Part shown: piece by piece, positions 3,211-11,713 of the stretch
Position numbering within the stretch: position 1 is the stretch's first letter
Layout: each line of letters starts with the position of its first letter
Source: a virus
Length of the DNA: 20,393 nucleotides
Virus record (IMG/VR): IMGVR_UViG_3300035091_000002
Coordinates: 1-20,393 of that record
Strand: one strand, 5' to 3'
Notes under the pieces: model-generated
What the model saw: only the letters and a program-made list of their open reading frames with translations
Database searches by the model: none
Told to the model about the DNA's origin: nothing
Program-made: the position numbers and the translations under genes

Positions 3211-3996
3211 CTACCAGCTCTTCAGCGCGTTGCGGCGCTGCGCCATGATGACGCCGGTCCAGGCCGAGAACGTGCCGGACGCGACGACGCGCAGCCAGCG
3301 CTTGACGTTCTGCGCGCCGGTCTCGATGCGCTGCCACCCATGCGCCGCGCTCACCGCGGTGAAGCCGCCGCCGGTCGTGTCGGCGTACGGATCAACCGAG
3401 CCGTTGTCGTTCGACTCTTGGATCTTGAACGTCACCGAAGTGCCGGTGAACGAGAACGTGTGAATGTGAAACGCCGCCCCGAACGCGCCCGGCGAGACCG
3501 AGCCGAGGTCGATACCGGCCAGGTTGCCAGCGCCCGACACGCTCTGCCCCCATGAGGTGAGCGAGAATCCCCATTCGAGAGGGATGCCGTCGCTCTCGTT
3601 CGCGGCGACGTTGAACGTGAAGCTGCCATCCTGGCCGCGGTTGCCGGGGTAGTCGATCTGCTTGGCCACCAGGTTGGCCACGACCGAGCCGGCCGCCGCG
3701 CCGGCGCCGAACGTGAAGAGCGAAGACGCCGTCGGCAGCGCCGAGAACTGCGAATGGCTCGCGTTCGAGGCAGGGTCGAAGTAGACGACAGCCTCGATCG
3801 CGCCGTCGTAGAGGCCGGACGGCAGGCCGTCGGCGGCGAGCACCGAGCCCATGCGCGACTGTCCGAGTTGCGTGATGTCCGTCGAGATGATCGGATTCGG
3901 CACGCCGCCACCGATCCGACCGAGCGACTGTACGTCGCCGCCGAGGTCGAAGCCGCCGACGGCGAACCGAGCACCGAGTCCAGTTTGCTTAGCCAT
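3211..3996 (-). CDS. Tail protein with tube-like N-terminus and C-terminal beta-sandwich, 261 aa
   Basis: Starts MAKQTGLG behind AGGGGTAAGG. The first 150 residues or so (containing VAKQIDYPGNRGQDGS and ending near LEWGFSLTSWG) look like an actinophage tail tube domain. Residues about 165-250 contain FSFTGTSVTFKIQES and WQRIETGA, a beta-sandwich module often appended to phage tail or capsid proteins and thought to face outward and bind surfaces or glycans. It may be a second tail tube protein, or the main one with a decorating domain; the shorter twin at 2324-2734 shares its first eight residues. It is followed closely by the small protein at 2746-3201. Confidence 0.75.
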   Translation of the reverse strand: MAKQTGLGARFAVGGFDLGGDVQSLGRIGGGVPNPIISTDITQLGQSRMGSVLAADGLPSGLYDGAIEAVVYFDPASNASHSQFSALPTASSLFTFGAGAAAGSVVANLVAKQIDYPGNRGQDGSFTFNVAANESDGIPLEWGFSLTSWGQSVSGAGNLAGIDLGSVSPGAFGAAFHIHTFSFTGTSVTFKIQESNDNGSVDPYADTTGGGFTAVSAAHGWQRIETGAQNVKRWLRVVASGTFSAWTGVIMAQRRNALKSW

Positions 3997-4006
3997 GCCT
4001 TACCCC

Positions 4007-6073
4007 TCACGCAACCTGGACGAAGGCGTCGTCGACGATGATCGGAATCGTAAGCGTCATGCAGCGGTAGATCTTCTGTGCGTTCGGAGGACCCATCGGC
4101 ACGTAGCCAGCCTCGGCGCCCATCGGCGGCCCCGTGATGCCGAGCAGGTCGATCGCCCGGACCGCGGGCAGATCGAGATCGAAGTCGGCGGACAGCGCTT
4201 CCATGACGGCGGCCATGGCTTTCATGACCGACGGGTCGATCAAGTCCTGCGGCTCGCTGAGGAAATTCTGATAGATCCGCAGGTACCAGGCCACGCGCAG
4301 TGACGTCGACGTGAGGCTCGACTCGCCGATGGCTGGCACCATCGTCTGCAGCCAGAGCGCGGCCGTGAGGCCGTTACGCGGCGCGCTCTTCGGTTCGTGC
4401 TGCTGAACGCGCTGGAATATTCCAAGACGCAGCACGAACGAGACGAGCGAGTTCAAGATCTCATCCAACCTGTCCCCCAATCTGACCGCTGGTAGCTCGA
4501 GGGTGGCGTTGCCGAAACCCAAGATCGGTACGACGGTGCGCCCGGACGCCGCGACGCGCTTGGCGCCGACGCCGAGCGATGTGATCGTGACGGCACCGCG
4601 CCCGGCGGCCGCTGCTTTCTTGACCGAGAAGCCGGCCGCGCGCATGGCCGTCGCCGCGGCGCCGACCTGTGGCGCGCGCTTCCCCGCGACCGACTGACCG
4701 ACGACGGCGGCCATCGCCGCGCCGACGACGACAGCGCGCTTGGCTGCCGTACTGCCGGCGCGTACGGCCAGGACGGCCGAGCCGGTCTGTGCACGCGCCG
4801 TGCCGCTCTGCTCGAAGCCGGCGCCGGTGATGGCGACGCCGGTCGTACCGGCCGCGGCGACGCGCTTGGCGGCCGTGCCGGCGCCGACGACGGCGACGCT
4901 CGCGGCCGCCGTCTCTTTGGCGATCTTGGCGACGCTGCCGCCGGCACGAACGGCGAGCTCGGCGGCGCCGGTCTGTGCCTGCTGATGGATCTCGGCGCCG
5001 GCCTGGCGGATGGCGAGCTCGGCCGTGCCGGTCTCCGGTGCGCGCTTGGCGCCGACGCCGGCCGGCCGGATCGCGATCATCGCCGCGCCGGTCTGCACGC
5101 GCGGACTGGTGGTCGTCTCCAAACCGGCCGCCGCGACGCTCAGCGCGCTCGTGCCGACCTGTGGCGCGCGCTTGACGCCGACGCCTGCAGCGCGCACCGG
5201 CACGACGGCCACGGCCGTCTGAGGCGCCACCTTGACGGCCGCACCGGTCGCCGAGATCGCGAGCGACGCCAGGCCGGTCTCGGCAGCAGCAGCGGCGGCG
5301 GCGATCTCGGCGACGAGTCGCCAGCGCCACGTCAACACCTGCATGAGCAGGTACGGACTCATGCGCCAACTGACGCCGCCGGCATCGGCCGCGGGCAGGA
5401 TTTCGACCCATGCCCAACGTAGCGACGTCGAGCCCGCCGGGAGGGTGACGTTCAGTGTCGTCGTCGCGCCGGCCACGCCGTTATTGCTGGCGCCGCGGAA
5501 GAACCCGTATGTGTAGTTCGCGGCGACGTCGGCCGAGCCTTCGAGCGATGTCGCCGTGCCGGCCGACTCGGCGCCGACGTCGGCCCAGTCGCAGGAGACC
5601 AGGAAGCCGCGCGAGCCGGTGCGCGTGGCCGTGTAGCTCTGCGCGATGCTGCTCGTCGAGGCCGTCGCGCCCTGCTTGCCGTGCTGGCCGACAGGGTTCG
5701 TCACGTCGGTGCCGGTCAACACGGTGACGAGCAGGGAGGCGTGACGGTTCGGCGACGCCGCGCCGTTCGTGACGGTGATCGTCATCGCCGAGGCCGGCGC
5801 CGGCGCGACGGCCGTCCAGGTCGCCACCTGGCCGTCGGCCGTCGGCGAGTCTGGCTGACGGCCGTTGTCATAGAGCGTGTAGTTGAGGTGCGTGCCGAGG
5901 TTGTCGGTGATGCCCGGCAGGCCGGGGCTGGTGGGATCGATCGTGTTCGCGGAATACCTGATCAACAGGGTGACGCCGGGCGGCGGCGTGAAGCTAGCCG
6001 TCGTCACGGTGGCGATCGTGCCGTCCGTCTGGACGGCGATGGCCGGCGTCGAGCCGTCGATCAGGATTCCCAC
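4007..6073 (-). CDS. Tail terminator with large repeat-bearing N-terminal extension, 688 aa
   Basis: Starts with GTG at 6073 behind GAGGTAGG. Three parts are visible. Residues 1-230 form a Thr/Ala/Gly-rich beta domain typical of virion surface proteins. Residues about 262-525 hold thirteen tandem repeats of 20 residues (two are 22). Residues about 527-688 match actinophage tail terminators: an EILNSLVSF-type helix, RVQQHEPKSAPRNGLTAALW, LRIYQNFLSEPQD, and a C-terminus with RCMTLTIPIIVDD. Tail terminators are normally about 150 residues alone and cap the tail tube where it joins the head. The fused front part would therefore project from the neck. The tail terminator call rests on the C-terminus and on position just before the tube genes. 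I see no frameshift or stop between the parts. Confidence 0.8.
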   Translation of the reverse strand: MGILIDGSTPAIAVQTDGTIATVTTASFTPPPGVTLLIRYSANTIDPTSPGLPGITDNLGTHLNYTLYDNGRQPDSPTADGQVATWTAVAPAPASAMTITVTNGAASPNRHASLLVTVLTGTDVTNPVGQHGKQGATASTSSIAQSYTATRTGSRGFLVSCDWADVGAESAGTATSLEGSADVAANYTYGFFRGASNNGVAGATTTLNVTLPAGSTSLRWAWVEILPAADAGGVSWRMSPYLLMQVLTWRWRLVAEIAAAAAAAETGLASLAISATGAAVKVAPQTAVAVVPVRAAGVGVKRAPQVGTSALSVAAAGLETTTSPRVQTGAAMIAIRPAGVGAKRAPETGTAELAIRQAGAEIHQQAQTGAAELAVRAGGSVAKIAKETAAASVAVVGAGTAAKRVAAAGTTGVAITGAGFEQSGTARAQTGSAVLAVRAGSTAAKRAVVVGAAMAAVVGQSVAGKRAPQVGAAATAMRAAGFSVKKAAAAGRGAVTITSLGVGAKRVAASGRTVVPILGFGNATLELPAVRLGDRLDEILNSLVSFVLRLGIFQRVQQHEPKSAPRNGLTAALWLQTMVPAIGESSLTSTSLRVAWYLRIYQNFLSEPQDLIDPSVMKAMAAVMEALSADFDLDLPAVRAIDLLGITGPPMGAEAGYVPMGPPNAQKIYRCMTLTIPIIVDDAFVQVA
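4508..5290 (-). repeat. Thirteen tandem 60-bp coding repeats (20-aa units)
   Basis: Within the tail terminator fusion, a Thr-Gly or Val-Gly pair recurs at residues 266, 286, 306, 328, 348, 368, 388, 408, 430, 450, 470, 490 and 510. The rough unit is APxTGxAxLAIRxAGxxxKR. The copies differ from each other, and two units have 22 residues. Alternating small and hydrophobic residues suggest a stacked beta structure. The DNA copies are diverged, so this is an old array, not a fresh slippage tract. Confidence 0.88.
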
Positions 6074-6081
6074 GGCCTACC

Positions 6082-6414
6082 TCACGGCCCCGCGGTGATC
6101 TGGCCGAGCGCGAAGACGTCTTCGATCACGTTCAGGCCGGCGGCCGACAGACCGGCCGCGGTGACGTTGCGATCTCCCTCGAGGTTGCCGATGCCGAACA
6201 CGTGCGTTGCCGTGTCCGGCCGGCCGTCGGCGCCGAGGCCGATGTAGATACGCGTGTACATGCAGCCGGCGTCGCGATGCAGCGTCGCGTTGATCAACGC
6301 GTGCGTCGTGTTGTCGTAGTTGATCACGATCGAGACGTGATTGCCCTGGTAGTCGGCACCTGAGTCGTACCGCCAGGGACTGACCTGGACGCCGCCAACC
6401 TTGCCTGCCGCCAT
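6082..6414 (-). CDS. Small virion-region protein of unknown function, 110 aa
   Basis: ATG at 6414 follows GGGAGGGTGG, a very strong ribosome site. The protein is beta-rich with charged and aromatic residues mixed (HVSIVINYDN, MYTRIYIGLG, HVFGIGNLEGD), and has one cysteine and no membrane segment. I do not recognise the family. It lies between two predicted virion surface proteins and the tail terminator fusion, and its tight spacing suggests co-translation with them. A structural neck or decoration role is the simplest guess. Confidence 0.65.
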   Translation of the reverse strand: MAAGKVGGVQVSPWRYDSGADYQGNHVSIVINYDNTTHALINATLHRDAGCMYTRIYIGLGADGRPDTATHVFGIGNLEGDRNVTAAGLSAAGLNVIEDVFALGQITAGP

Positions 6415-6426
6415 GCCACCCTCCCG

Positions 6427-6969
6427 CTAGTTGATGAGCGCGACGTGAAAGCCGTTCGTCTTCACGGTGTTGCTGGGGCTCGACGTTCCCCAGGTGCCCG
6501 AGACGCCGAGCGCGCGCGCGATCGTGGTATCCCATGTCACCGTGCGCAGCGCTTGCGTGATCGGGATCGGCGTCGATGTCCACGCGGTCAGCGACGTGCC
6601 GAGCTTCAGCTCGCCGCCGCCGACGAGCGTGCCTGACGTGCCGACCGCGGTCACCGTGCCGAACCACTCCATGGCCCACGGCCAGGCGGCGGCCGCCGAT
6701 CCGGTCGTGATCACCGACGACAGCGCGATGTCGGTCGTGATGGCGGCGGCCGCCGTGCCGATGTAGAAGCCGAGCGCGAGCGTCGGCGTGCCGGTCGTCG
6801 AGAATTCGCCGTAGGCCTGCAGCCAGAGCTTCGCGCCCGGACGCAGAACGTAGCCGTTGATGATCGGCAACGGCTGCGGCGAGATGTCCTGCTTCGTGGT
6901 GAACGAAGCGAAGGTCGAACTGGCCGCCGTGGGGAACGGCCCGACGCCGTTCGCGAGATAGAAGTCCAC
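6427..6969 (-). CDS. Beta-rich virion protein, probable neck or decoration protein, 180 aa
   Basis: Starts with GTG at 6969, two bases after the TAA of the previous gene. The sequence is dominated by Ala, Thr, Gly and Ser with alternating hydrophobic residues (LWLQAYGEFSTTG, LALGFYIGT, WAMEWFGTVTAVG), consistent with a jelly-roll or sandwich fold used in phage surface proteins. No enzymatic motif is seen. It sits in a block of three similar proteins between the neck protein and the tail terminator fusion. Function is inferred from composition and place only. Confidence 0.65.
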   Translation of the reverse strand: MDFYLANGVGPFPTAASSTFASFTTKQDISPQPLPIINGYVLRPGAKLWLQAYGEFSTTGTPTLALGFYIGTAAAAITTDIALSSVITTGSAAAAWPWAMEWFGTVTAVGTSGTLVGGGELKLGTSLTAWTSTPIPITQALRTVTWDTTIARALGVSGTWGTSSPSNTVKTNGFHVALIN

Positions 6970-6971
6970 GA

Positions 6972-7643
6972 TTAGATCACCGTCGCGTCGATGGTGATCG
7001 CGCCGATGGCCAGGGTGATCTGACCCTGCGAGGCGAAGACCTCGGGGACGACTTTCTCGAAGTAGACCTCACCTTGACCGGTCAGGTCGACGGCCGCGCC
7101 GCCCGAGGTCAGTGCGATTTGGAACGTGTCGGTCGCCGTGCCGACGACGAAGTACGCGCCACCTTCGGTCACGCCGGCGGGGATCGTCTCACCGACGACG
7201 TTGTACAGGATCACGCGATCGGCATTGGCCAGGCCGTGACCGTTGCTCGTGATCGTGTTGTTCGTGACGTCGGTCGAGTTGACGGTGCCGAAACCTTTCT
7301 TGGGGCTGGCGCCGCCGAACGGCGCGTAGCCGCGGAAGTTTGACGTGTTGCCGCTCGAGGCGTTCCAGAATGTGAAGAACCCGTACGTTCCGGCCGGCAC
7401 GTCGAACGTGAGCGCGCCGGTGTTGGCCTTGACGCCGCCGGACGCAGCGCCCCATACGACGGCCTGCCGCGCGTAGGCCGGCGATCCGCCGGTCGCTTCG
7501 GTCGCCGCGGCGTTCGTGCTCACGCCGGGCGTAGTGTCGGTCGGCGGAGCCGTGGTCAGCGTGTTGATGCCGATGTGCGTGATCTGTGTCGCGGACTCGT
7601 CGAGCGCGTCGAGAGCCACATTGAGTGCGGTCACATTGAGCAT
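6972..7643 (-). CDS. Fibre-like virion protein with beta-repeat domain, 223 aa
   Basis: ATG at 7643 begins directly after the TAG of the neck gene. The N-terminal half contains GGSPAYARQAVVW and FDVPAGTYGFFTFWNASSG, a pattern seen in many phage tail or neck fibre-like proteins. The C-terminal half carries GHGLANADRV, GAYFVVGTATDTFQIALTSG and GQGEVYF, a beta module that occurs repeatedly in phage surface and decoration proteins. Together these suggest an exposed structural protein near the head-tail junction. It could be a collar or whisker component, or a minor capsid protein. Not an enzyme as far as can be seen. Confidence 0.72.
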   Translation of the reverse strand: MLNVTALNVALDALDESATQITHIGINTLTTAPPTDTTPGVSTNAAATEATGGSPAYARQAVVWGAASGGVKANTGALTFDVPAGTYGFFTFWNASSGNTSNFRGYAPFGGASPKKGFGTVNSTDVTNNTITSNGHGLANADRVILYNVVGETIPAGVTEGGAYFVVGTATDTFQIALTSGGAAVDLTGQGEVYFEKVVPEVFASQGQITLAIGAITIDATVI

Positions 7644-8021
7644 CTAGAGACTCCCGATCCTGCGTTCGATGTCCTGCTCGACGATCGAGCCGGCCTGTCT
7701 GTCGAGCTCTCCGGTTGTGCGCCGGAACGTCGCGTATCCCTTGAACCGTGTCGTGCGGTTGCGTTCCGAGACGCCTTCGAGCCACGGCCCGTAGACGATG
7801 CCGCCGTCGGTCACGGCCAGGTCGGCGCCGGCGCGCTCGGTCTGCACGCGCGATTCGTAGTGGCCGGTCGGATGACGCAGCACGCCATGCAGCCGCTGTC
7901 GCACGAGGTCGACGCCGCGCTGCGCGACGTCTTCGAGGCCGTCCTGTAAGCCCTTGTCGATGGCGCGCTCGAGCCGGCCGTCGAAGAGCGGCCCTTTCGC
8001 CTCGTACGTCAAGGTGAGCAT
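7644..8021 (-). CDS. HK97 gp10-like neck / tail completion protein, 125 aa
   Basis: ATG at 8021 shares its final base position with the previous stop (TGATG). The protein has a helical first part (RLERAIDKGLQDGLEDVAQRG), then YGPWLEGVSERNRTTRFKGY and FRRTTGELD. This pattern is typical of the HK97 gp10-like family, which lies at the head-tail joint and is needed to complete neck or tail. Length is normal for the family, and position after the connector gene agrees. Confidence 0.8.
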   Translation of the reverse strand: MLTLTYEAKGPLFDGRLERAIDKGLQDGLEDVAQRGVDLVRQRLHGVLRHPTGHYESRVQTERAGADLAVTDGGIVYGPWLEGVSERNRTTRFKGYATFRRTTGELDRQAGSIVEQDIERRIGSL

Positions 8022-9052
8022 CAGACGCCGAGCCAGGTGACCGGCCGCCGGTAGGCCTGCTCGGCGTCGGCACGGATGCCTGGCAGGCCGGCGCCGACCG
8101 GCACCGAGCCACCCTCCCCCGCGGTGCCGGCGTAGGCGCCCGACTCCTGCTGCAGTTGCTCGAGCGCCTCGGCGATCGCGAGGGACTCGACGAGCGGGGG
8201 GATCACGAGTCGGTTGATCGCGGCGCCGTTCGTGTGCGTGGCGGCCGCGGTGCCGAGCGCGCCACGCTGCACCGTGAGCGTGCGCGGTACGTAGATCGTG
8301 CTGCCGGTGTGCACGTCGAGCGGCGAACCGTCGTAGGCGCGCGTGACGGTCAGCGTGTTGCCCGCGATCGACGTGACGAGCATCCGCTCGGCGTCGAGCG
8401 TGATCACTTCGTTCGTATGGAAGGCGGCACCGTTCGCCACGGCGACAAGTTGATCATCGTTGAACGCCGTCAACGGCGTGCCGAGCGTCTGACCGGTAGT
8501 GATCAGACTCTTGTCGGTCACGATCATGCGTTCGTTGTCGACGCGGATGATCGTCCCGATGCCGATCGCAGACACGTCGCTGACGTCGACGGCGGTTTCG
8601 CTGTTGTCAAGATCTTCGGCGATCGTGCCGGCCGGCGTCTCTTCGATGTTGAATCCGAACGGTCCGACGATCACCACACCGCGGAACGTCGACGTCCAGA
8701 CAGCCGACGTGATGATCTTCAGCTTGTTGTACGGGGGGCCTTCCTGCGGCAGCAGCACGTAGTCGACACCGGCGACCATGGCCGTACCGCCGTTCGTGAC
8801 GCTCGTCGGAGCGCCAGCGAGGGTGTACCGGCCTAGCGTGAGCACCGACGGATCGCGGGTTGAGAGCTGCTCAAAGTAGCGGGTGGCGATCTCCGGATAG
8901 AACCGGTAGCCGAGCCGGCCGCCGCCGGGCGAGACGCCGTCGATGGACCGGGACGCGCTCTCGAGCGCGCGCACGATCTGCGGATTCAGATCGGCGCCGC
9001 GAATGTCACCGTCGAGCTTGACCCGCTCCACGGTGGCGTACAACACGCCCAT
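8021..9052 (-). CDS. Head-tail connector / adaptor protein with inserted beta repeats, 343 aa
   Basis: The N-terminal part (VQRVK-type start, RALESASRSIDG, GRLGYRFYPEIATRYF) matches head-tail connectors of the HK97 gp6 type that bind under the portal. Residues about 168-285 contain two related beta units: VDNERMIV and LDAERMLV, then TVTRAYDGSPLDVHTGSTIY and TVQRGALGTAAATHTNGAAI. The second form is a classic beta hairpin repeat in phage structural proteins. The C-terminus has a helix (ESLAIAEALEQLQQESG) as in connectors. At 343 residues it is well above the usual 100-150 of a plain connector, because of the insert. The start is not certain: the ribosome site (AAGGA) lies rather far upstream. 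Confidence 0.75.
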   Translation of the reverse strand: MGVLYATVERVKLDGDIRGADLNPQIVRALESASRSIDGVSPGGGRLGYRFYPEIATRYFEQLSTRDPSVLTLGRYTLAGAPTSVTNGGTAMVAGVDYVLLPQEGPPYNKLKIITSAVWTSTFRGVVIVGPFGFNIEETPAGTIAEDLDNSETAVDVSDVSAIGIGTIIRVDNERMIVTDKSLITTGQTLGTPLTAFNDDQLVAVANGAAFHTNEVITLDAERMLVTSIAGNTLTVTRAYDGSPLDVHTGSTIYVPRTLTVQRGALGTAAATHTNGAAINRLVIPPLVESLAIAEALEQLQQESGAYAGTAGEGGSVPVGAGLPGIRADAEQAYRRPVTWLGV

Positions 9053-9917: not shown

Positions 9918-10134
9918 CGTCGCCGCCTCGCACGACGGCGAGCTGCTCGCAGCCGATCACCATGACGCCGGCACCGTCCGGCAACCGCTCCTCGATCAGC
10001 CGCTTGACTTCCTCGAGCTCGCTCCATTCAACGTCGGGTGACACACGGACGACGAGCGTGTCGCCGCGGTGAACGACAACGCCTTCTTTGATCTTGTCGA
10101 TTGGGTCAACCTTGATCGTGATCTCTTCATTCAT
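9910..10134 (-). CDS. Small conserved protein of the glycosylation module, 74 aa
   Basis: Overlaps both neighbours by 8 bases, so it is translated with the two transferases. The sequence has GDTLVVRVSPDVEW followed by a helix (ELEEVKRLIEERLP) and MVIGCEQLAVV, a beta-alpha-beta pattern found in small phage proteins near head genes. No catalytic motif is visible. Its place between two glycosyltransferase genes suggests a role in the same process, but it may equally be a head accessory protein. Confidence 0.65.
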   Translation of the reverse strand: MNEEITIKVDPIDKIKEGVVVHRGDTLVVRVSPDVEWSELEEVKRLIEERLPDGAGVMVIGCEQLAVVRGGDDG

Positions 10135-11713
10135 GGCGAATCCACCAGCCTGCCGGGTTGCTCGAGATCGGCGACAGACGCTCGATCGCCATGTCGCGCA
10201 GCCACCCGTCGTTCCCGGCGAGCAGGTCGAACACGGCGTCGAGCGGCGTCCCCTCGAGGCCGTCCGGGAAGTGCTGATCGACGAGACGGTTCGACGCGTA
10301 ACCGAAGATCGTATCTTCGACGACCAAATAGCAGCCGGGCGTGACCAAACGACCGTACAGCTCGATCTCTTTGGTCACGTGCGCCTGCGAATGATCAGAG
10401 TCGAGAATGACCATTGCTCGACGGCCGTTCACCAGCCTGGACACCGACTGAACAATGTCCGGATCGACCGAGCTGCCGGTGATGTAGTCGATCTGGACGC
10501 CGAGCAACATGCCGCCGTCGGCGGCCGGCGGTCGGCACGTGTCGATGGTGAGCACCTCGGCGCCGGAGGCCTCGGCCAGCCAGCGTGCGGACGCGCCGGT
10601 GTGCGTGCCGGTCTCGATGATCACTTCAGGTTTCGTCTGCTCGATGATCTGCCGGTAGCGGTCAAGATCGTCGGCGAACTTCAGCATGCCGCCGCGGTCG
10701 TGCTCGTTCGCGGCGAGCGCGCGACACGACGCCTCGAGGTCGATCGCGACCGGCAGATCCGGGTACGGCGCCTCGAGGTCACTGGACTGCAGGCCGGACA
10801 CGGCCAGGTAATCGTCTTCCGTGATCCACGTGCGCTTGTGATGCGACGTGCGAACGCCGGTGTTAACGAACATCTTGAATCCGGCGGCGCCGGCGCGCAG
10901 GCAGAGCGCGAGATCTTCGCCGACCGTATCGCCGGATTCGTCGCGTACCTGGCTGAACCACTCGTCGCCGTGGATCTCGCGCAGCCGCTCGAGCACCGAG
11001 CGGTGTACGAGCAGGAAGGCGGTTCCGGTCGCCGCGACTCGCAGCACGGCGTTGCGCTCGTACGGCCCGTAGAAGCAGAAACGCTTTTGATCACTACCGA
11101 CGATGTTTCCGATCTTGTACATGGTCGGCACGAGCGCCTGTCGCCAACCTCCCATGCCGTCGTAGTTCGCGGTCATGGCCGCGAAGCACAGCCCGCCGAC
11201 GATCGGCCGCTCGGTCGGGTCGGCTGACGCGAGCAGCTTGTGCACGGCGTCCGGCTCGAAACCCATGTCGGTATCGCAGATCAACAGCCACTCGTGCGGC
11301 GTGCCGTCGAGGAAGAGCTTCGCCATGTAGTTGCGCATCGGCGTGATCAGCACGCCCGAGCCGCACGGGATGTTGAGCGAGCGCCGCGCGATCACGTGCA
11401 GATCGTTGTCGCGGTCGAAGTCGCGTACGGCGTCGAGACTGTGATGCCAGGAGTACGACACCGTGTCGCCGTGCAAGTAGCCGATCTGCACGATGCCGTC
11501 ACCGGTTGATCGTCCGGCCATGTGACCGTTGTGGCCGGGGTACATCGGCCCGACCGGATGACCGGCCACAAGATTGCAAGGTCCGTCCGGAGTATTTGCG
11601 CCGCACGGTGTGCGTTCGGAGTCGTTCGTGAATCGCGAACCGACCTCAGCGTCTTTCTTGTCGCCACCGGTCCATCGATCAGAACCGGGGTGATTGAGCG
11701 TGTGCTCTTCCAT
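10127..11713 (-). CDS. Glycosyltransferase fused to CmcI-like SAM methyltransferase, 528 aa
   Basis: ATG at 11713 follows AAAGG. Residues about 30-65 have Cys37, Cys46, His52, His61 and His64, a possible small metal site. Residues about 70-300 form a GT-A glycosyltransferase with DTD at 147-149, GEDLALC at 265-271 and a double His at 290-291. Residues about 325-525 match the cephalosporin hydroxylase/CmcI family of SAM-dependent enzymes: IIETGTHTGASA (SAM loop, 365-376), LDSDHSQAHV (437-446) and LVVEDT (463-468). One chain could both add a sugar and methylate the product. It lies just after the capsid gene and is translationally coupled to two further genes of this module. Capsid or tail glycan modification is inferred; the acceptor is unknown. 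Confidence 0.85.
   Translation of the reverse strand: MEEHTLNHPGSDRWTGGDKKDAEVGSRFTNDSERTPCGANTPDGPCNLVAGHPVGPMYPGHNGHMAGRSTGDGIVQIGYLHGDTVSYSWHHSLDAVRDFDRDNDLHVIARRSLNIPCGSGVLITPMRNYMAKLFLDGTPHEWLLICDTDMGFEPDAVHKLLASADPTERPIVGGLCFAAMTANYDGMGGWRQALVPTMYKIGNIVGSDQKRFCFYGPYERNAVLRVAATGTAFLLVHRSVLERLREIHGDEWFSQVRDESGDTVGEDLALCLRAGAAGFKMFVNTGVRTSHHKRTWITEDDYLAVSGLQSSDLEAPYPDLPVAIDLEASCRALAANEHDRGGMLKFADDLDRYRQIIEQTKPEVIIETGTHTGASARWLAEASGAEVLTIDTCRPPAADGGMLLGVQIDYITGSSVDPDIVQSVSRLVNGRRAMVILDSDHSQAHVTKEIELYGRLVTPGCYLVVEDTIFGYASNRLVDQHFPDGLEGTPLDAVFDLLAGNDGWLRDMAIERLSPISSNPAGWWIRHE

Follow-up and report, generated by a model that had tools for sequence, protein, structure and literature searches.

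The window analysed here comprises 20,393 nucleotides, positions 1 to 20,393 of the IMG/VR virus record IMGVR_UViG_3300035091_000002. Its minus strand carries, at 4007-6073, a single gene of 688 amino acids with a GTG start at 6073 and a stop codon at 4009-4007. The first-pass annotation had located the gene here and had described it as one unbroken frame, and both points hold: the minus strand is read through 688 codons without a stop, the plus strand over the same interval is interrupted by stops, and the codon-position GC is of the coding type along the whole frame (third position 0.83-0.95). A GAGG lies upstream of the GTG start, giving a Shine-Dalgarno ΔG of -7.1 kcal/mol.

The encoded protein consists of an N-terminal beta domain (residues 1-230; 5384-6073), a linker (residues 231-265; 5279-5383) with a predicted helix at residues 240-265, thirteen tandem repeats (residues 266-529; 4487-5278) and a C-terminal tail terminator domain (residues 530-688; 4010-4486). 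This arrangement of beta domain, helix, repeats and C-terminal domain in one frame is confirmed as real. We refer to the 529 residues before the terminator domain as the arm.

The neighbouring genes are minus-strand genes too, and that of the major tail protein (3211-3996; phrog_9522, E 4e-10) is directly downstream of the fused gene. Upstream, three inserted genes separate it from the conserved neck genes, namely a 110 aa gene (6082-6414) and a 180 aa gene (6427-6969), both of which accompany the beta-domain gene in other phages, and a 223 aa gene (6972-7643) that is rare in relatives. These are followed by a conserved neck gene homologous to gp21 of Streptomyces phage Dagobah (7644-8021), with a function assigned by position only, and by the head-tail adaptor (8021-9052; phrog_442, E 1e-5). 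The terminator gene is therefore placed between the neck genes and the major tail protein gene, and it stands directly before the latter in the window, in the uncultured-virus contig L009 and in relatives with stand-alone terminators. The adaptor homologue is 343 aa long and has a middle stretch in common with Dagobah gp16, which may be another accessory domain. Two further minus-strand genes sit between the capsid and adaptor genes and could modify virion proteins: 10127-11713 encodes a fusion of a glycosyltransferase with a rhamnosyl O-methyltransferase/CmcI domain (PF04989, E 3e-31), and 9207-9917 matches glycosyltransferase and DNA methyltransferase PHROGs. The host of the phage is probably an actinobacterium, judging from its relatives only (Dagobah and a few, mostly actinomycete, genomes).

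The tail terminator domain and its family

Tail terminators cap the tail tube as hexamers and dock the head, and those of siphophages are usually regarded as minimal ring proteins. The C-terminal 159 residues gave an AlphaFold2 model with a pLDDT of 90.3 from a family alignment of 104 sequences, and the leading PDB structure matches of this model were all tail terminators or tail caps. The best of the named matches was the pyocin R2 collar (Z 14.2), followed by lambda gpU (Z 13.0 over 129 residues, rmsd 2.6-2.7), T5 p142 (Z 12.2), the RcGTA terminator (Z 11.8) and connector chains of mycobacteriophages Bxb1 and Douge (Z 9.4-9.5). The resemblance to gpU, p142 and the RcGTA terminator extends to the position of the gene directly before that of the major tail protein. 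Furthermore, the C-terminus is 40% identical to Dagobah gp17, a stand-alone protein of 157 aa annotated as hypothetical, whose gene sits between the adaptor and major tail protein genes. These data bear out the original assignment of the C-terminus as an actinophage-type tail terminator, as well as the remark that such a terminator is normally a separate protein of this size, since gp17 stands alone and most relatives are independent. In the match list, siphophage terminators of solved structure consist of one domain, with chains of about 120-165 residues, whereas in the window the arm precedes the domain.

The window terminator and Dagobah gp17 belong to a large terminator family with the signature HEPK...PQDxIDP; no Pfam or PHROG profile matches either of these two scanned members, and a sequence search of the PDB returned nothing useful. 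The missing curated match is a gap in the profile libraries, whereas the 104-sequence alignment and its model give a fold that is unambiguously that of a terminator. Whole-protein and short-peptide look-ups found no relatives because these are too distant, and relatives were collected by a spaced codon pattern (HEPK-45 codons-PQDxIDP) derived from the window and Dagobah gp17. The scan returned at least 119 viral loci and 4 genome loci; the sample was drawn with one codon pattern, so that prevalence figures are rough and are lower bounds. Dagobah is the only named phage with a relative of the window terminator.

We looked for a second terminator on the 20,393-base record, which is perhaps not the whole genome, with an HMM of the family from which the window's row had been left out. 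The fused gene was the single match (E 3e-54), and no separate terminator of the kind that the first-pass annotation had named as a refutation was found on this record.

The arm, its stand-alone counterparts and other armed terminators

The AlphaFold2 model has beta strands across residues 1-230, in agreement with the N-terminal beta domain of 230 residues first described, and its pLDDT there is mostly 70-88. The repeats comprise eleven units of 20 and two of 22 residues, just as originally counted, and have a pLDDT of around 30-40. Their period of 20 is far above chance, with a mean BLOSUM62 self-score of 1.17 at offset 20 compared with a maximum that averages 0.13 and never exceeds 0.34 in 300 shuffles. 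The reported pairing of glycines is also seen when the units of the window and L009 are pooled, with G at position 2 in 26/28 and at position 12 in 26/28. A trimeric beta shaft was considered for these repeats.

We found no convincing PDB fold match for the N-terminal domain, the full-length match lists being filled by the terminator, and identified no characterised lectin fold in the arm. Pfam, including its Ig-like, PKD and DUF4082 models, gave no match to the arm. In BFVD the full model matched terminators and also uncharacterised proteins of phages, together with minor tail proteins from two Mycobacterium phages, PP and Tweety.

The contig L009 has the same architecture and is 55% identical over the full length, with 15 repeats compared with 13 in the window, a major tail protein gene directly 3′ of the fused gene and neighbours as in the window. 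Among the matches listed, this type of fusion was found only in these two. A sequencing or assembly error could have merged adjacent genes. A run of five G (G5) lies exactly at the junction, and an indel there is one candidate cause, since one G more or fewer would leave two overlapping genes. However, L009 differs by 25% in its terminator nucleotides and has an identical G5 context and an open frame, and ten further junctions have no such G5 run as a cause. Together with L009, about 18 further armed terminators show a fusion, hence joining by error, a possibility that the first-pass annotation had itself raised, is excluded in practice and we regard it as extremely improbable.

Homologues of the beta domain were found at at least 28 loci and, except in L009, all are separate genes, many of which run into their own array of 18-22-residue repeats. 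L177 and L189 have such a separate beta-domain-plus-repeats gene together with a separate terminator and so represent the unfused counterpart of the window. At the loci whose neighbours were read, the separate genes are near terminase, portal, capsid or connector genes, and homologues of 6427-6969 or 6082-6414 are often directly upstream. Because these homologues recur beside the beta-domain gene, the cassette of 180 aa, 110 aa and beta-domain genes seems, on gene order, to move as a unit.

The cassette, with its beta-domain-plus-repeats gene, occupies varying positions in the virion region (the window, L128, L129, L130, L131, L132 and L173-L192). The stand-alone beta-domain proteins (L129:5200-7554, L175, L179, L183, L188 and others) have 18-22-residue repeats of several unrelated sequences, and one group ends in short TTxRPxTG-type repeats and a C-terminal cysteine.

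With the arm an independent gene in other phages and the terminator independent in most relatives, the fused gene could encode a polyprotein, the arm being cut from the terminator after translation, for example by the head maturation protease or one of the host, to become an independent fibre or decoration protein as in other phages. We give this little credence, as no protease domain was identified in the fused gene, and the junctions of the different armed types have no common motif and lead straight into the first helix of the terminator.

Arms of terminators come in several forms. Counted by sequence, at least 19 distinct terminators of uncultured viruses have a recognised arm, with L099 in addition. 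In the pattern scan a coding arm is present in at least 12 contigs (the window, L009, L017, L118, L099, L102, L104, L025, L050, L027, L065 and L006), true and spurious upstream frames being told apart by codon-position GC. Many other long frames upstream of terminators, such as those in L107, L093, L039 and L114, were rejected as fusions since their codon-position GC is non-coding. In nine of the 12 a PKD domain comes after a DUF4082-type domain; the five of these arms that were scanned with Pfam all matched (DUF4082 E 2e-7 to 1e-20, plus PKD models) and the remainder were recognised by BLAST. DUF4082 and PKD match the arms of other armed terminators only, never that of the window. In L099 the arm is a beta domain with four repeats of 20 residues, and a profile comparison found no relation between this beta domain and that of the window.

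A scan with the DUF4082-PKD arm gave at least 18 loci, and in 17/18 it is fused to a terminator of the HEPK...PQDxIDP family. In the 18th (L157:3609-4691) the arm is on a different 112-aa C-terminus, directly before a tail-protein-like gene, and this protein may be an armed terminator from a different sequence family. None of the isolated phages in the searched set has an armed terminator like L027 or L099. Among 395 genomes of the class of G001, an Actinomadura genome, the best four candidates per genome included no match spanning the DUF4082 arm and the terminator; DUF4082-like stretches are recurrent in large open frames of actinomycete genomes.

The terminators of most relatives carry no arm. 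On the terminator tree (a quick search, with many weak branches) the fused state needs six changes; L065 is the armed exception within a well supported clade whose other terminators stand alone, and the arms of the sisters L027 and L099 are unrelated. From these observations it follows that arms have been gained, lost or swapped.

The variability of the arms bears on whether they are structural rather than adhesive, that is, a collar that braces the neck or touches the underside of the capsid. The neck is close to the capsid, and the R4C adaptor, like the window's terminator, is a neck ring protein with an accessory domain, here an Ig-like domain at its rim that its authors read as stabilising, although the adaptor is a different ring protein (PMC10276861). 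Conservation would be expected of a brace, whereas the sisters L027 and L099 have completely different arms, the repeat number varies between 13 and 15, and most relatives are armless. We therefore consider a structural arm unlikely.

The junction and a candidate internal start

A possible internal ribosome site with a TTG start (TTGGGGGACAGGTTG) is located on the minus strand at 4466-4480, the start codon at 4468-4466 corresponding to residue 536. TTGGGGGACAGGTTG recurs without change in L009, though the terminator parts of the window and L009 are just 75% identical in nucleotides. Its second TTG is 23 residues before the HEPK motif, and stand-alone terminator genes appear to begin about 20-34 residues before HEPK. 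The Shine-Dalgarno pairing at this TTG is the strongest of 37 in-frame internal start codons in the window gene and of 43 in L009, with a ΔG of -8.4 kcal/mol compared with -7.1 at the gene's own start. There is little RNA structure at the site, within the lowest 7% and 11% of sequence windows in the two genes, and among 3167 five-codon stretches in ten window genes, the one with the rarest codons overlaps the site.

The predicted internal start may thus also yield a plain terminator from the same frame. Alternatively, GGGGGACAGG may be what is left of a ribosome site from the time when the gene was still separate; either a plain terminator is still produced internally, or the relic is well preserved. 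In the other armed types checked no comparable site was found, and L099 is without any start codon there. All terminator copies in those phages should therefore be armed, and a ring with an arm on every subunit would thus seem to be viable. The earlier idea of a ring of arms at the neck need not mean six arms in the window, because the conserved internal start could supply plain terminator.

A proposed role for armed terminators at the neck

Our favoured reading, which we consider probable, is an armed terminator that would cap the tail through a hexameric ring and carry an outward adhesion arm at the neck, with a plain product perhaps also made from the same frame. We infer the adhesion, the hexamer, the dual product and the ring of arms from sequence and predicted fold. 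By sequence, a mobile adhesin-type gene of beta domain and 20-residue repeats, normally separate, directly precedes the terminator gene and is joined to it in frame. In predicted fold the C-terminal 159 residues make up an entire terminator. The fused protein should therefore retain both terminator functions, closing the completed tail tube with a hexameric ring and docking the head.

The arm would leave from the N-terminal helix at the ring rim, its repeats projecting outward as a spacer or shaft. Outward projection is proposed because terminator helices are peripheral in the ring of a solved relative, the two main terminator helices of R4C being at the ring periphery (PMC10276861). Held away from the neck, the beta domain would bind a sugar or protein of the host surface and make adsorption more likely ahead of tail-tip engagement. 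We read the arm as an exchangeable surface module since the same module is a separate gene elsewhere, the fold matches include minor tail proteins, and DUF4082/PKD arms occur as alternatives.

The N-terminus may be a demanding place for such an addition. In T5 p142 it takes part in the ring interface, and an N-terminal His tag led to monomers while a C-terminal tag gave fibres (PMC11784142), so that assembly of the ring might suffer from an arm at this end. The internal start could offer a solution, because the junction ribosome site and TTG would supply arm-less terminator and a mixed ring would limit the number of arms without blocking assembly. That armed and plain terminators co-assemble, with relative translation setting the number of arms, and that the rings of related phages with DUF4082-PKD or other arms are six-armed, is a tentative proposal and rather doubtful as it stands. 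If the mixed-ring reading is true, the tail terminator would be a platform, general but unrecognised, on which host-binding domains are displayed.

Virion proteins with accessory surface domains are known in kind, and in the literature searched the siphophage tail terminator is new as their carrier. Terminators with additional domains have been described, such as those in contractile tails that terminate the sheath as well (PMC11784142). In lactococcal 936 phages, carbohydrate modules on the neck bind host cells, and a collar with six fibres is seen (PMC6669499). This neck passage structure resembles the proposed arrangement in having host-binding modules on long arms at the neck (PMC6669499), but is a separate protein round the connector, whereas arm and terminator share one frame in the window. 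In mycobacteriophage Douge, the capsid and tail tube proteins have Ig-like domains that bind to the host surface, again as accessory domains appended to virion building blocks (PMC13033339). The Douge domains are present in many copies, on the major capsid and tail tube proteins, whereas the window arm has no Ig family match and, on a hexameric terminator, would be present in at most six.

In the literature searched, no paper combined a tail terminator with a PKD domain, or DUF4082 with phage, and no description of surface-domain display on a siphophage tail terminator was found. The first-pass view that no such armed terminator had been described therefore stands for siphophages in the literature searched, but the window is not a one-off, given about 20 armed terminators.

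As related uncultured phages have fused different arms to their terminators several times, the head-tail joint may be an overlooked site where phages display host-binding domains. These recurrent, exchangeable fusions form a natural series for studying the cargo tolerance of terminators and the ligands of arms. If terminators are display platforms, the host-binding domains of many uncultured actinobacterial phages would be at the head-tail joint, with a copy number of six at most, and would be missed when receptor-binding proteins are sought solely at the tail tip.
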